The position numbers were made by a program, and so were the translations under genes. Below the pieces are notes generated by a model. The model saw only the letters and a program-made list of their open reading frames with translations. It ran no database searches and was not told where the DNA came from. From Psychrobacillus sp. BL-248-WT-3 (GTDB lineage: Bacteria > Bacillota > Bacilli > Bacillales_A > Planococcaceae), in NCBI RefSeq assembly GCF_012843435.1, contig NZ_JABAFC010000034.1, positions 1-40,403 of the forward strand: DNA of 40,403 nt, written 5' to 3'. Positions 15,622-18,447 of this stretch are shown here, piece by piece; the stretch's first letter is position 1; every line of letters begins with the position of its first letter.

Positions 15622-16128
15622 TTAGTCTTTGTTAGTAGATTGGGAAGTATGAACATTTTGCTCAACGGGATAATTGCTAGCCTCAATTTTAATCCTTGAT
15701 ATTACTTCTTCTTCATTAAGCTCAGTAGGTTCAACGCTATAGCGCAGCTGATCGATGAGCTCACTTACTTCATACCACTCCATCAAATCGTCCGGATAAT
15801 CTAAATCAGATGCAATAATCCGATACATCATGTAAGCTAAATCAAATATCGCAGAATGACTATTAGCCTCTAGTATTTTAGCTGCTAAATAACCTAAATA
15901 ATCTCTTGTACATGTTTCAATGGTTGGTGCTTGTATTGATAACTCTTGTAAAGCCCTTTTGAAATAAACTTCCACTTCGAAAATACTCTCATTATATGAG
16001 ATGGAAGAAACTATATTTACGGATGGTGATGATATATCGTTTGCTAATAAGTTATGGGACCAATTCACATAGTCCTTAGTGGTCACAGTTCTTTTTTGTA
16101 TTTTATAAAATAGAGCATTGGTTTTCAC
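15622..16128 (-). CDS. Hypothetical protein
   Basis: The 168-residue soluble, acidic protein is predicted largely helical and has no recognised motif. A GTG start follows AAGGAGATT on the minus strand. It is a single-gene unit ending at the terminator at 15578. It is divergent from the small HCSC protein unit. Function unknown. Confidence 0.65.
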   Translation of the reverse strand: MKTNALFYKIQKRTVTTKDYVNWSHNLLANDISSPSVNIVSSISYNESIFEVEVYFKRALQELSIQAPTIETCTRDYLGYLAAKILEANSHSAIFDLAYMMYRIIASDLDYPDDLMEWYEVSELIDQLRYSVEPTELNEEEVISRIKIEASNYPVEQNVHTSQSTNKD

Positions 16129-16239
16129 TGTATTAATCTCCTTAAATAATAATCTCTTTTATAACTTTATACACGATGAACAAAAAAATTTCTATGCAAT
16201 ATGCTATAGAAATAGCTGTTAGTGTTCTGCTTTGAGATA

Positions 16240-16248
16240 TGCTATTAT
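16240..16248 (+). promoter_or_regulatory. Extended -10 promoter
   Basis: TG-C-TATTAT matches the extended -10 pattern. The -35 area is weak. Transcription would start near 16255, giving a leader of about 130 bases before the HCSC gene. Confidence 0.5.
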
Positions 16249-16275
16249 TGTAAAAAAATAGAGGGGTAAGACACT

Positions 16276-16320
16276 ATGAATTATATAATCCAATTGTTCA
16301 GCTACATGCCGAGCTTGTAG
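16276..16320 (+). CDS. Candidate leader peptide, 14 residues
   Basis: The mini-ORF has a strong ribosome site (AGAGGGG) nine bases before its ATG and reads MNYIIQLFSYMPSL then TAG. Its last four codons, including the stop, form part of the 5' arm of a 17-bp hairpin. This geometry is that of leader peptides whose translation controls a downstream gene. It is too short for a normal protein. No amino acid is enriched enough to suggest amino-acid attenuation. The Pro three codons from the stop recalls arrest peptides, which is only a suggestion. Confidence 0.5.
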   Translation: MNYIIQLFSYMPSL

Positions 16321-16377
16321 GGTGCGCTATTGCCATTCCTTGAAGCACCTTGCAAGCTCGGGTTTCTCAAGGGAGCT
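16309..16377 (+). promoter_or_regulatory. Leader RNA with competing folds over the ribosome site
   Basis: Arms 16309-16325 and 16345-16361 form an unbroken 17-bp stem (two G-U pairs) with a 19-base loop. Loop bases CCTTGA (16338-16343) are complementary to TCAAGG (16367-16372), which overlaps the ribosome site AAGGGAG (16369-16375), so a pseudoknot is possible. Alternatively AGCTC of the 3' arm (16355-16359) can pair with GAGCT (16373-16377), also covering the ribosome site and excluding the first stem. There is no T tract, so control would be at translation. Confidence 0.5.
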
Positions 16378-16385
16378 GATACAAT

Positions 16386-16661
16386 ATGAAAAATCGTTCG
16401 AAATCTTACACTCGCCATCAGCGAGAGCGAGCCATTCAAAAAAAGATAGGAATCGTAAGAAACGTTTTTAATTGGGACGACAACGAAGAAAAATTTCTGC
16501 CCGTAAGAGGTAAGTTTAACAAAGGCAAGGTTCATTGTTCTTGTTGGATGTGCCGTTATGAACAAAATCTTGGGGTTCCAAAAGCCAAATATCAAGCAAA
16601 ATGGCATGCTATGAAAAAAGAGATAGACTTAGAGTTAACTGTCGATATGGGAAATAACTAA
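16386..16661 (+). CDS. Small basic protein with KVHCSCxxC motif
   Basis: The 91-residue protein has a strongly basic N-terminus (KNRSKSYTRHQRERAIQKK) and a central GKFNKGKVHCSCWMCRYEQ. Its three closely spaced Cys plus His could bind a metal such as zinc. I recall a scattered bacterial family of small basic proteins with a GKxHCSCxxC signature and no assigned function. The basic character would suit nucleic-acid or ribosome binding, which is inference. The ATG lies ten bases after AAGGGAG. The gene is alone, behind a leader mini-ORF and hairpin, and shares a terminator with the convergent ABC-F gene. Confidence 0.75.
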   Translation: MKNRSKSYTRHQRERAIQKKIGIVRNVFNWDDNEEKFLPVRGKFNKGKVHCSCWMCRYEQNLGVPKAKYQAKWHAMKKEIDLELTVDMGNN

Positions 16662-16684
16662 CGTTTCCAGTCAAAAGAATATGC

Positions 16685-16723
16685 AAAAAAGCTGATCGCG
16701 ATACTTCTCACGATCAGCTTTTT
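16685..16723. terminator. Bidirectional terminator
   Basis: An 8-bp core stem (16691-16698 with 16711-16718) is flanked by A's and T's on both sides. It serves the convergent HCSC-protein and ABC-F genes. Confidence 0.88.
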
Positions 16724-16744
16724 AATGTTTATCAGGTTAAAGTT

Positions 16745-18307
16745 TTACTCTTCAATAATTTCTTTCCCTGTAGAGAACCATTCTTCAACGTTCCAAACCT
16801 TTGTCGCTAAGCCCTCATAAAATTCAGGCTCATGGCTGACAAGAACAATTGTGCCTTTGAATTCCTTCATTGCACGTTTCAACTCTTCTTTTGCATGAAT
16901 ATCTAAATGGTTAGTTGGCTCATCGAAAATTAGCCAATTACTTTCTTCCATCATTAGCTTACATAAACGAACCTTCGCTTGCTCACCACCACTTAAACTG
17001 GAAAGAGGGCGAGTAATGTGTTCACTTTTAAGTCCGGTGCGTGCCAATGCTGCTCGAACCTGGCTTTGCTCCATGCTTGGATAAGTTTCCCATACAGACT
17101 CAATTGGTGTAATGTTACCAGCTTTTACTTCTTGTTCAAAGTAAGAAGGGAAGAGGAAGTCGCCTCGGATTACTTTTCCACCAATTGGAGGGATTTTCCC
17201 TAGCATGGTTTTTAGTAAGGTAGATTTACCAATACCATTCATCCCTACAAGGGCAATTTTCTCTCCGCGCTCTATCGTAAACGTTAAAGGGGGAAGAAGT
17301 GCTTTGTCGTAACCAATCTCTAAATGCTCCGCTTCAATGACATAACGCCCAGAGCTACGAGACTCCTTAAAGCCGAACTCTGGCTTCGCTGCAGTCTCAG
17401 GACGGTCAATACGCTCAATGCGATCCAATTGTTTTTGGCGAGACTTAGCTCGTCCAGTTGTAGAGTAGCGTGCTTTGTTTTTAGCGATGAATTCCTCTTG
17501 TTTTTTGATGAAATCCTGTTGTTTTTCATAAGCGTCCAGATGCTGTCTTTTATTTAGCTCCGCAAGCTCTAAGAATTTTTCATAGGAAGCTGTGTAGCGT
17601 GTAAGCTTCGAGAATTCTAAATGGAAAATGACATCTACAATTCCATTCATGAATTCTGTATCATGAGAAATTAATAAGAATGCATGTGGATAGTTTTTAA
17701 GATAGTTGGATAACCAATTTACATGCTCTTCATCTAAATAGTTAGTAGGCTCATCTAGTAAAAGAACTTTTGGCTTTTCCAATAAAAGCTTGGCAAGTAA
17801 AACCTTTGTACGCTGACCACCGGATAATGCCTCTACTGGACGGTCTAGTCCGATTGCATCTAGACCAAGTCCTCTAGCAACCTCTTCGATCTTCATATCT
17901 AGTGAATAGAAGTCTCCAGCATCCAGTGCATCTTGAATTTCTGCCATTTGTTCGAGTAACACTTCAAGCTCTTCAGGTGTAGCATCACCCATTTTTCCAA
18001 TAATCTCGTTAAGCTCTTCTTCCTTTTTATAAAGAGGTAAGAAGGCATCACGAAGTGTATCAAACATGGAACGCCCTGGCTGTAAGCGTGTATGCTGATC
18101 TAAATATCCATAATGCGTACCTGGAAGCCATTCTACTCGACCCTCGTCATATATAATCTCTCCCGTTAAAATGCTCATCAATGTTGATTTTCCAACACCA
18201 TTTGCCCCAACTAGCCCTACGTGTTCGCCCTCAACTAAGCGAAATGAAACCTCTTTAAATAATGTACGATCACCGAATGTATGTCCCAAATTTACTACGT
18301 TTAACAT
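16745..18307 (-). CDS. ABC-F family ATPase (YfmM-like)
   Basis: The 520-residue protein has two ABC domains and no membrane part. The first has Walker A GANGVGKST (35-43), signature LSGGQRTKV and LLLDEPTNYLD. The second has GMNGIGKST, LSGGEQAKV and LIFDEPTNHLD. The linker between them carries the basic FIKKQEEFIAKNKARYST and RAKSRQKQLDRI, which reaches the ribosomal P-site in ABC-F proteins. It resembles Bacillus YfmM as I recall it. ABC-F proteins resolve stalled ribosomes or protect from antibiotics. I start at ATG 18307 behind GGAGGAAAAAA; the longer frame adds 28 unrelated residues. A 48-codon ORF overlaps this start. Confidence 0.9.
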   Translation of the reverse strand: MLNVVNLGHTFGDRTLFKEVSFRLVEGEHVGLVGANGVGKSTLMSILTGEIIYDEGRVEWLPGTHYGYLDQHTRLQPGRSMFDTLRDAFLPLYKKEEELNEIIGKMGDATPEELEVLLEQMAEIQDALDAGDFYSLDMKIEEVARGLGLDAIGLDRPVEALSGGQRTKVLLAKLLLEKPKVLLLDEPTNYLDEEHVNWLSNYLKNYPHAFLLISHDTEFMNGIVDVIFHLEFSKLTRYTASYEKFLELAELNKRQHLDAYEKQQDFIKKQEEFIAKNKARYSTTGRAKSRQKQLDRIERIDRPETAAKPEFGFKESRSSGRYVIEAEHLEIGYDKALLPPLTFTIERGEKIALVGMNGIGKSTLLKTMLGKIPPIGGKVIRGDFLFPSYFEQEVKAGNITPIESVWETYPSMEQSQVRAALARTGLKSEHITRPLSSLSGGEQAKVRLCKLMMEESNWLIFDEPTNHLDIHAKEELKRAMKEFKGTIVLVSHEPEFYEGLATKVWNVEEWFSTGKEIIEE

Positions 18308-18447
18308 ATGATTTTTTCCTCCAAAAAGAAAGCTCGCAAAACTGATAAAACGATAATTTTCTCTGTATCTTTGCTTAAAAAAGCATCGCAAAGATTACAG
18401 ACGGGGCAGTTAACATACTCCAACCCTACCAAAGGACGGGTTTCCAT
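18301..18447 (-). CDS. Upstream ORF of 48 residues overlapping the ABC-F start
   Basis: An ATG at 18447, about nine bases after AGGGGAA on the minus strand, opens a 49-codon frame. Its TAA lies inside the first codons of the ABC-F gene (7-base overlap), and the ABC-F ribosome site lies within it. The product contains NCPVCNLCDAF, a CxxCxxC cluster. A hairpin (ATCTTTGC 18367-18374 with GCAAAGAT 18388-18395) sits inside the frame. It may be a regulatory upstream ORF, since ABC-F genes are often controlled by leader translation, or a small metal-binding protein, or chance. Confidence 0.4.
   Translation of the reverse strand: METRPLVGLEYVNCPVCNLCDAFLSKDTEKIIVLSVLRAFFLEEKIIC

Follow-up and report, generated by a model that had tools for sequence, protein, structure and literature searches.

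Attenuation of the erm and cat kind relies on a leader ORF followed by hairpins that mask the ribosome site of the next gene, and the position of the ribosome decides whether that site is free; erm and cat leaders depend on a specific stalling site or on a peptide together with a drug. In trp-type attenuation, an early pause turns expression on and a ribosome at the stop codon turns it off, through alternative pairing. To our knowledge, most sensory uORFs described so far depend on stalling that is specific to a peptide or to codons. The toiL uORF, located upstream of topAI-yjhQP in Escherichia coli, is summarised as containing sequence that pairs with the downstream ribosome site, which is unmasked when antibiotics of several classes stall ribosomes at various positions; toiL is 8 codons long, with conservation of the first seven residues, and induction also follows from stalling at the start codon (PMC12121999). 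Two other motifs are outlined in PMC8632094. One, uORFC-6-1, lies upstream of hflX, mostly in Bacillales, and is a uORF candidate with RNA structure past the start codon and a feature known from antibiotic-resistance leader peptides. The other, odc1 (uORF-25-1) of alpha-proteobacteria, combines an extended stem, a large loop and a pseudoknot with a uORF of constant length, which encodes a highly conserved 11-residue peptide and starts two bases before the main start codon (PMC8632094).

The leader described here precedes a gene for a small protein with an HCSC motif. A short uORF and pairing to the next ribosome site are common to it and toiL; going by the summary of toiL, it differs in that its peptide is unselected, that a ribosome at the start codon leaves the site closed in our folding model and that a second, late lock is present, and both the target and the phylum are other ones. 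It resembles erm and cat leaders in its ORF, masking hairpins and position logic, but has no conserved peptide at codons 2-7 and its target is no known resistance gene. With trp-type leaders it shares position logic and alternative base pairing; unlike them, it would act on translation start rather than on a terminator, and it has no run of codons for a single amino acid. Within what is outlined of uORFC-6-1, the two have in common a uORF with downstream RNA structure and a link to ribosome stress, with a different target gene, while odc1 shares the constant uORF length and the stem-loop with pseudoknot and differs in its conserved peptide and in where its uORF starts. A literature search, mostly at the level of abstracts, found no description of the leader-HCSC pair.

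The leader locus in the Psychrobacillus window

The window, i.e., the whole stretch of 40,403 nucleotides that was analysed, contains the HCSC gene with its leader and, on either side, one gene of the opposite strand (Table 1). A first-pass annotation of this DNA had reported an extended -10 element, a mini-ORF with a ribosome site and a 17-bp hairpin (P2 in this work; 16309-16325 with 16345-16361) with the final codons of the ORF and its stop in the 5' arm, and all of these are present. The promoter element is a mixed case: the pattern TGnTATnAT is retained in a same-genus locus (L002), but a simple promoter scan, which found 1 site against 1.8 expected, did not pick out TGCTATTAT. The leader folds at -44.4 kcal/mol, compared with a mean of -32.2 (sd 3.4) for shuffled sequences (z -3.6), and 1 out of 200 shuffles equalled it.

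Table 1. Features of the HCSC locus and its flanks, in window coordinates.
Feature	Position	Strand	Basis or remark
Extended -10-like promoter element TGCTATTAT (putative)	16240..16248	+	Read in window letters; TGnTATnAT kept in L002
Leader-ORF ribosome-binding site AGAGGGGT (AGAGGGG)	16260..16267	+	Window letters; conserved with ORF
Leader ORF, 14 codons + TAG, peptide MNYIIQLFSYMPSL	16276..16320	+	Length conserved, peptide not
P1 5' strand, within leader ORF codons 6-10	16293..16303	+	Minimum-free-energy fold; P1 in relatives
P2 5' arm, containing last codons and stop of leader ORF	16309..16325	+	Fold; covariation
Loop strand TTCCTTGA (anti-SD), complementary to HCSC ribosome site	16336..16343	+	Flank covariation
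P2 3' arm	16345..16361	+	Fold; covariation
TCAAGGGA, SD-side strand of loop/SD helix	16367..16374	+	Overlaps HCSC ribosome site; flank covariation
HCSC ribosome site AAGGGAG	16369-16375	+	Overlapped by TCAAGGGA
P1 3' strand, ribosome-site end up to HCSC start codon	16374..16385	+	Minimum-free-energy fold; relatives
HCSC gene, 91 aa, basic N-terminus, GKVHCSCxxC (window: GKVHCSCWMC)	16386..16661	+	Relatives; phrog_4499; purifying selection in family
Inverted repeat AAAAAGCTGATCG...CGATCAGCTTTTT between the two convergent genes	16685-16724		Probably a two-way terminator
Convergent ABC-F gene, ribosomal-protection-like	16745-18391	-	NF000355, 399 bits, cutoff 380
Divergent gene of no known family	15622-16128	-	Other flank of HCSC locus

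A terminator scan over 16130-16760, in which loops were limited to 8 bases, found no terminator and did not report the inverted repeat. The same end of the ABC-F gene adjoins HCSC in the same-genus locus L002; the printed flank of another locus of the genus, L004, differs. Rfam at the gathering score gave 0 matches in the window (sub-threshold E values were 0.95 or worse), and in 12 relatives it gave 42 tRNAs and one c-di-GMP riboswitch, none of them at the leader. In Bacillus sp. M6-12 (L081, 2307-9706), the HCSC gene and its leader are located within a long tRNA array with 42 tRNA matches, perhaps a phage- or plasmid-like element.

Leader ORF and helices in related loci

The locus set took in the best 80 of 134 HCSC stretches from a search of genome contigs. 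Out of 150 loci, 120 distinct upstream stretches remained after removal of 29 upstream duplicates and of L051, which was too short. The leader element is present in 99 of them: 95 have a correctly positioned motif C[CT][TC]GTA[AG], and 4 with an altered motif (L030, L044, L106 and L140) were recognised by eye. Many of the hosts are Bacillus-like and some live in the gut, the genera ranging from Lysinibacillus, Sporosarcina, Cytobacillus, Paenibacillus and Brevibacillus to Flavonifractor and Anaerotruncus. The 21 stretches without it belong to 10 distant relatives from the phylum, 10 of the 13 relatives from viral contigs and a fragment (L137). Two of the 95 motif loci, L071 (8 codons) and L029 (beside a damaged gene), were removed, and counts on 93 loci refer to the remainder; as a caveat, the loci share ancestry. 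Single-linkage clustering put 86 of these 93 leaders into one cluster, and greedy clustering at 70% identity was used instead; applied to 91 leaders (two loci lack a standard HCSC start), it yielded 25 representatives.

An ORF that spans 13-16 codons and has its own ribosome site, as expected of a leader-ORF attenuator, was found in 86/93 motif loci compared with 1.4% of shuffles, and in 24/25 representatives compared with 1.3%. Of the 85 loci with a called start, 61 have an ORF of exactly 14 codons and 82 one of 13-15. Among the 7 loci where no ORF with a ribosome site was called, three of Paenibacillus (L041, L059 and L079) have ATT as the nearest start. Selection on the peptide was examined in 31 disjoint pairs of loci at codons 2-7, later codons being excluded since they also base-pair. 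By codon position, 54, 54 and 61 of 186 sites differ (0.29/0.29/0.33), and 24 of 112 changed codons (0.21) are synonymous, the neutral expectation being 0.22. In the HCSC genes of the identical pairs (2303 codons), the corresponding values are 0.159/0.130/0.374, with a synonymous fraction of 0.505. Judged by these substitution patterns, HCSC is under purifying selection and leader codons 2-7 are not. Since change is equal across codon positions and the ORF is conserved, it follows that the reading frame and the length are kept, and the peptide drifts. No residue is common to the leader peptides at codons 2-7, and control codons for a single amino acid, of the trp type, are absent. The conserved peptide of arrest leaders (erm, tna and cat) was thus not found at codons 2-7, the later codons being confounded by pairing, and neither was a conserved leader peptide of the toiL type over the same codons.

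At its other end, the ORF nearly always closes as C-NYG-UAR in the 99 leaders, most of these letters being demanded by the motif search. The last codon is CTG, TTG or CCG in 95/95 motif loci, again with letters largely fixed by the search; the penultimate residue varies (S, C, G, N, R, Y or I). The leader of L140 ends in Ser, and that of L030 lacks the usual stop and ends 3 codons later. The stop is UAA or UAG in 98/99 leaders, 95 of which were found by requiring UAR, so the zero count of UGA among the latter is circular; of the four found without this requirement, L044 has UGA, and the statement that the stop is always UAR was dropped. Pairing in P2 may or may not be the whole reason for the fixed end, and the near-fixed last codon and stop fall outside what the attenuator model presented below explains.

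Covariation of P2 was analysed in 38 leaders hand-picked from the 95. Out of 646 cells, 92.4% are paired, compared with 31.6-47.5% in slid controls; 13/17 pairs show changes on both sides, and 112 cells are double-changed, compared with 33.7 in shuffles, while the core of the helix is near-invariant. Divergent leaders such as L012, L080, L086, L088, L091 and L092 were left out, so that these figures flatter P2 somewhat; clustering-based tests that include divergent leaders agree on P2. The first-pass annotation had named lack of conservation of the mini-ORF, or of compensatory changes, as grounds against its proposal, and neither was observed.

For the helix formed by the hairpin loop and the HCSC ribosome site (loop/SD helix), which the same annotation had proposed as a pseudoknot, complementarity is present in the window, and covariation could be assessed only at the flanks of the fixed SD core, in 90 loci (3 of the 93 lack the core). 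Flanks +1, +2, +3 and -1 were reached by 3, 0, 0 and 0 of 500 shuffles, with no excess over shuffles at +4, -2 and -3; in 23 representatives, the numbers for the same four flanks were 11, 7, 37 and 0 of 500. When a strand was compared with partners from foreign leaders, its own partner beat at least 75% of them in 24/25 representatives for P2, 17/25 for the loop/SD helix and 19/25 for a third helix, P1; just 9/25 beat 90% of swaps for the loop/SD helix. As judged from these alignments, covariation is strong for P2 and moderate for the loop/SD helix.

P1, which pairs leader codons with the region up to the HCSC start codon, was not named in the first-pass annotation; it is present in the minimum-energy fold and is the main lock of the folding model. 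Of the 73 loci with a called start and a P1 of at least 7 bp, 60 have a P1 that begins 18-25 bases past the start of the leader ORF. It thus lies just past an initiating ribosome, which would explain both the free leader start and the fixed length. In clostridial loci P1 is weak or shifted. The second cover of the ribosome site that had been suggested, AGCTC (16355-16359) with GAGCT (16373-16377), did not hold up: complementary in the window, it is exact in 7/93 relatives, and a helix of the P2 3' arm with the SD exceeds the shuffled 95th percentile in just 9/93, which is near chance.

In 61/92 loci, P2 and the SD strand are separated by a linker of 5 or 6 bases; the median is 5 nt, under a P2 of 16 bp. 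As a rule of pseudoknot spacing, 11 bp need 8 nt. The short linker strains the coexistence of P2 and the loop/SD helix. A partly unzipped P2 together with the loop/SD helix has a median net energy of about -4 kcal/mol before the entropy of the pseudoknot loop; strict mutual exclusion of the two helices was therefore dropped, their partial coexistence being near neutral in energy.

Ribosome position and access to the HCSC start

With a 29-base ribosome footprint placed at successive leader codons, and without pseudoknots, we computed how costly it is to open the ribosome site and start of HCSC. This walk used 80 of the 95 loci; the other 15 had no called start, an ORF outside 13-16 codons, a non-standard HCSC start or a loop/SD helix below 6 bp. 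The median cost is 11.4 kcal/mol with no ribosome and 11.8 with a ribosome at codon 2, falls to 6.2, 5.5 and 6.1 at codons 4, 6 and 8, and is 8.0 at codon 10 and 9.5 at codon 14. For a ribosome at the start codon (codon 1), an earlier walk over 69 loci gave 12.6. A low cost in the middle, defined as more than 1 kcal/mol below both the no-ribosome and the codon-14 values, was found in 74/80 loci compared with 19/80 with shuffled leader bodies. Other footprint sizes gave 74/80 and 71/80, and the earlier walk showed the pattern in 22/23 representatives; the six of the 80 loci without it are L006, L016, L032, L070, L105 and L127. In this pseudoknot-free computation, pairing thus changes with ribosome position, as in leader-ORF attenuators.

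The first-pass annotation held that the direction of control could not be decided from sequence. The modelled costs favour HCSC being ON when a ribosome sits at about codons 4-8, OFF when the leader is empty or only its start is occupied, and in between when the ribosome is at the stop. Because P2 and the loop/SD helix could partly coexist, the HCSC start may be opened only in part by a ribosome at codons 4-8, and because a partly opened P2 is near neutral in energy, this order of states is favoured, short of proof.

The reading that we prefer, and to which we give about even credence, is that the leader is a translation attenuator that reads ribosome position, is blind to the peptide and turns HCSC on when ribosomes slow down within it. 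The start of the leader ORF is free, so ribosomes could enter constantly. Whether the leader is empty or carries a ribosome at its start, P1 would bury the HCSC start, with P2 folded alongside, and HCSC would be off. A ribosome slowed or stalled at about codons 4-8 would cover the 5' strand of P1 while P2 stays folded, so that the HCSC start opens. A ribosome at the stop, which lies inside the 5' arm of P2, would melt P2, and the loop strand could then close on the ribosome site, giving a partly off state. HCSC would thus be made under slow elongation, irrespective of the codons. Comparison across loci shows that the ORF is kept without its peptide, that P2 is conserved with covariation and that the leader is paired with HCSC; the energy profile is computed, and we infer the on/off direction, the signal and the role of HCSC. 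The earlier suggestion that translation of, or stalling on, the leader sets HCSC expression survives in that the ORF and the helices are conserved together and fit ribosome-controlled access; its variant with a specific stalling peptide is unsupported, because codons 2-7 show no selection on the peptide.

One rival to the attenuator, plain translational coupling, in which passage of the ribosome opens P1 and P2 and the ORF does no more than link HCSC to translation initiation, with no sensing of stalls, agrees with the model in that a ribosome past about codon 4 opens P1, but a conserved loop/SD helix that closes the site again at the stop would be superfluous, and we think coupling rather unlikely. 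Nascent-peptide arrest of the erm or tna kind, in which a particular peptide, perhaps its C-terminal SL, CL or CP, stalls with a drug or metabolite, would suit the shortness of the ORF, similar to that of known leaders, the stop inside the hairpin and the recurrent CTG, TTG or CCG as last codon (95 loci, biased by the motif). Against it speak the lack of peptide selection at codons 2-7, the variable penultimate residue and the aberrant ends of L140 and L030; moreover, the C-terminal codons are paired in P2, which can explain their conservation. We regard arrest as unlikely.

Some ribosomal proteins bind their own leader stems, and the HCSC protein, which is basic, might likewise bind the stem of its own leader, the ORF being secondary. 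The near-invariant core of P2 and the failure to find a further target gene downstream of the leader are in keeping with such feedback, which leaves a fixed-length, translated-looking ORF in 86/93 loci unexplained and seems to us distinctly improbable. Least probable by far is a sensor of release factors or termination, in which slow termination at a UAR stop would hold P2 open and HCSC on: the predominance of UAA and UAG (98/99 leaders, 95 of them from a search demanding UAR, with UGA in L044) suits it, but in the model a ribosome at the stop codon lets the loop strand close the ribosome site (9.5 compared with 5.5 kcal/mol mid-leader).

Distribution and nature of the HCSC family

Counting the genome of the window each time, 12 of 101 related genomes carry an HCSC relative, as do 31 of 200 sampled from the family, 14 of 398 from the class and 7 of 398 from the phylum; 13 viral contigs have one too. 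This patchy spread suggests that HCSC is an accessory gene. In the neighbourhood of 93 loci, the commonest families recur in at most 8 loci and at varying distance. Behind an intact-looking leader in L012 (also searched as G032), HCSC is split over two frames; together with the damaged or shortened copies L029, L170 and L171, this split suggests repeated loss of the gene. In the viral contigs L141, L145, L147 and L149, HCSC lacks the leader, and related ORFs (up to about 500 aa) lie about 1.4-3.5 kb downstream of it; the ORF of L141 matches DUF2828 (E 1.8e-33).

A covariance model of the leader, run on the 398 class genomes with few candidates scored per genome, matched 19 of them, including all 14 with HCSC. 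Several of these 14 leaders had trained the model; those of G014, G170, G204 and G260 had not, and neither had the leaders of G001 and G032, matched in a further search. Five of the 19 genomes have the leader without an HCSC match: G405 has an HCSC-like start followed by a stop, and G389 encodes an HCSC-like N-terminus, preceded by a ribosome-site region that is altered; in G190 and G168 the stretch examined holds no HCSC frame, and in G370 the leader match is weak. A weak match in G027 had the look of a terminator hairpin and was rejected. The leader was not seen ahead of a second target; as few candidates were scored per genome, others may be missed.

The N-terminus of the HCSC protein is basic, and in the motif region all 101 aligned members have the same K, C, S, C and C. 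Out of 26 members, 21 match phrog_4499, a phage family of unknown function, at E values up to 0.01 (window protein, 1.8e-5); the same profile also matches within an Escherichia coli control genome. The window protein had no match in Pfam or NCBIfam, and the 26 members had only hits confined to single members (E 0.006 or worse). In the PDB, one search found no match at E 1, and another found two at chance level (E 0.35 and 0.48). The PDC-M06A models of PADLOC matched 1 to 3 of the 26 members (best E 4.1e-5) and, in a set of five proteins, one at E 0.0076, and were set aside. Searches by tblastn against phages and against plasmids gave no match. AlphaFold models are helical and of moderate quality (pLDDT 76.6 and 80.9, pTM 0.50 and 0.44; the latter pTM is that of a relative, also helical), and their structural comparison gave no convincing relative. 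We infer that the small HCSC protein probably binds RNA or ribosomes as part of a stress response.

In a wider reading, which we offer as tentative, the leader would be a dedicated RNA and a general, codon-blind gauge of elongation speed, able to tell a ribosome slowed in its middle from one that has yet to start or is about to finish. It would have spread by gene transfer through Bacillota along with a small CxC..C protein acting against translation stress or damage to ribosomes.

The leader is best read as a conserved, peptide-blind translation attenuator, seen only with the HCSC family; it may gauge the position of the ribosome rather than the peptide, and may thereby sense slowed protein synthesis. 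It provides a design for a reporter and a handle on the function of HCSC proteins, for which Pfam, NCBIfam and the PDB offer no convincing named relative. If this is true, a length and helices conserved around a free peptide would make up a sensor of elongation itself, and the uncharacterised HCSC family would consist of proteins induced by slowed translation.
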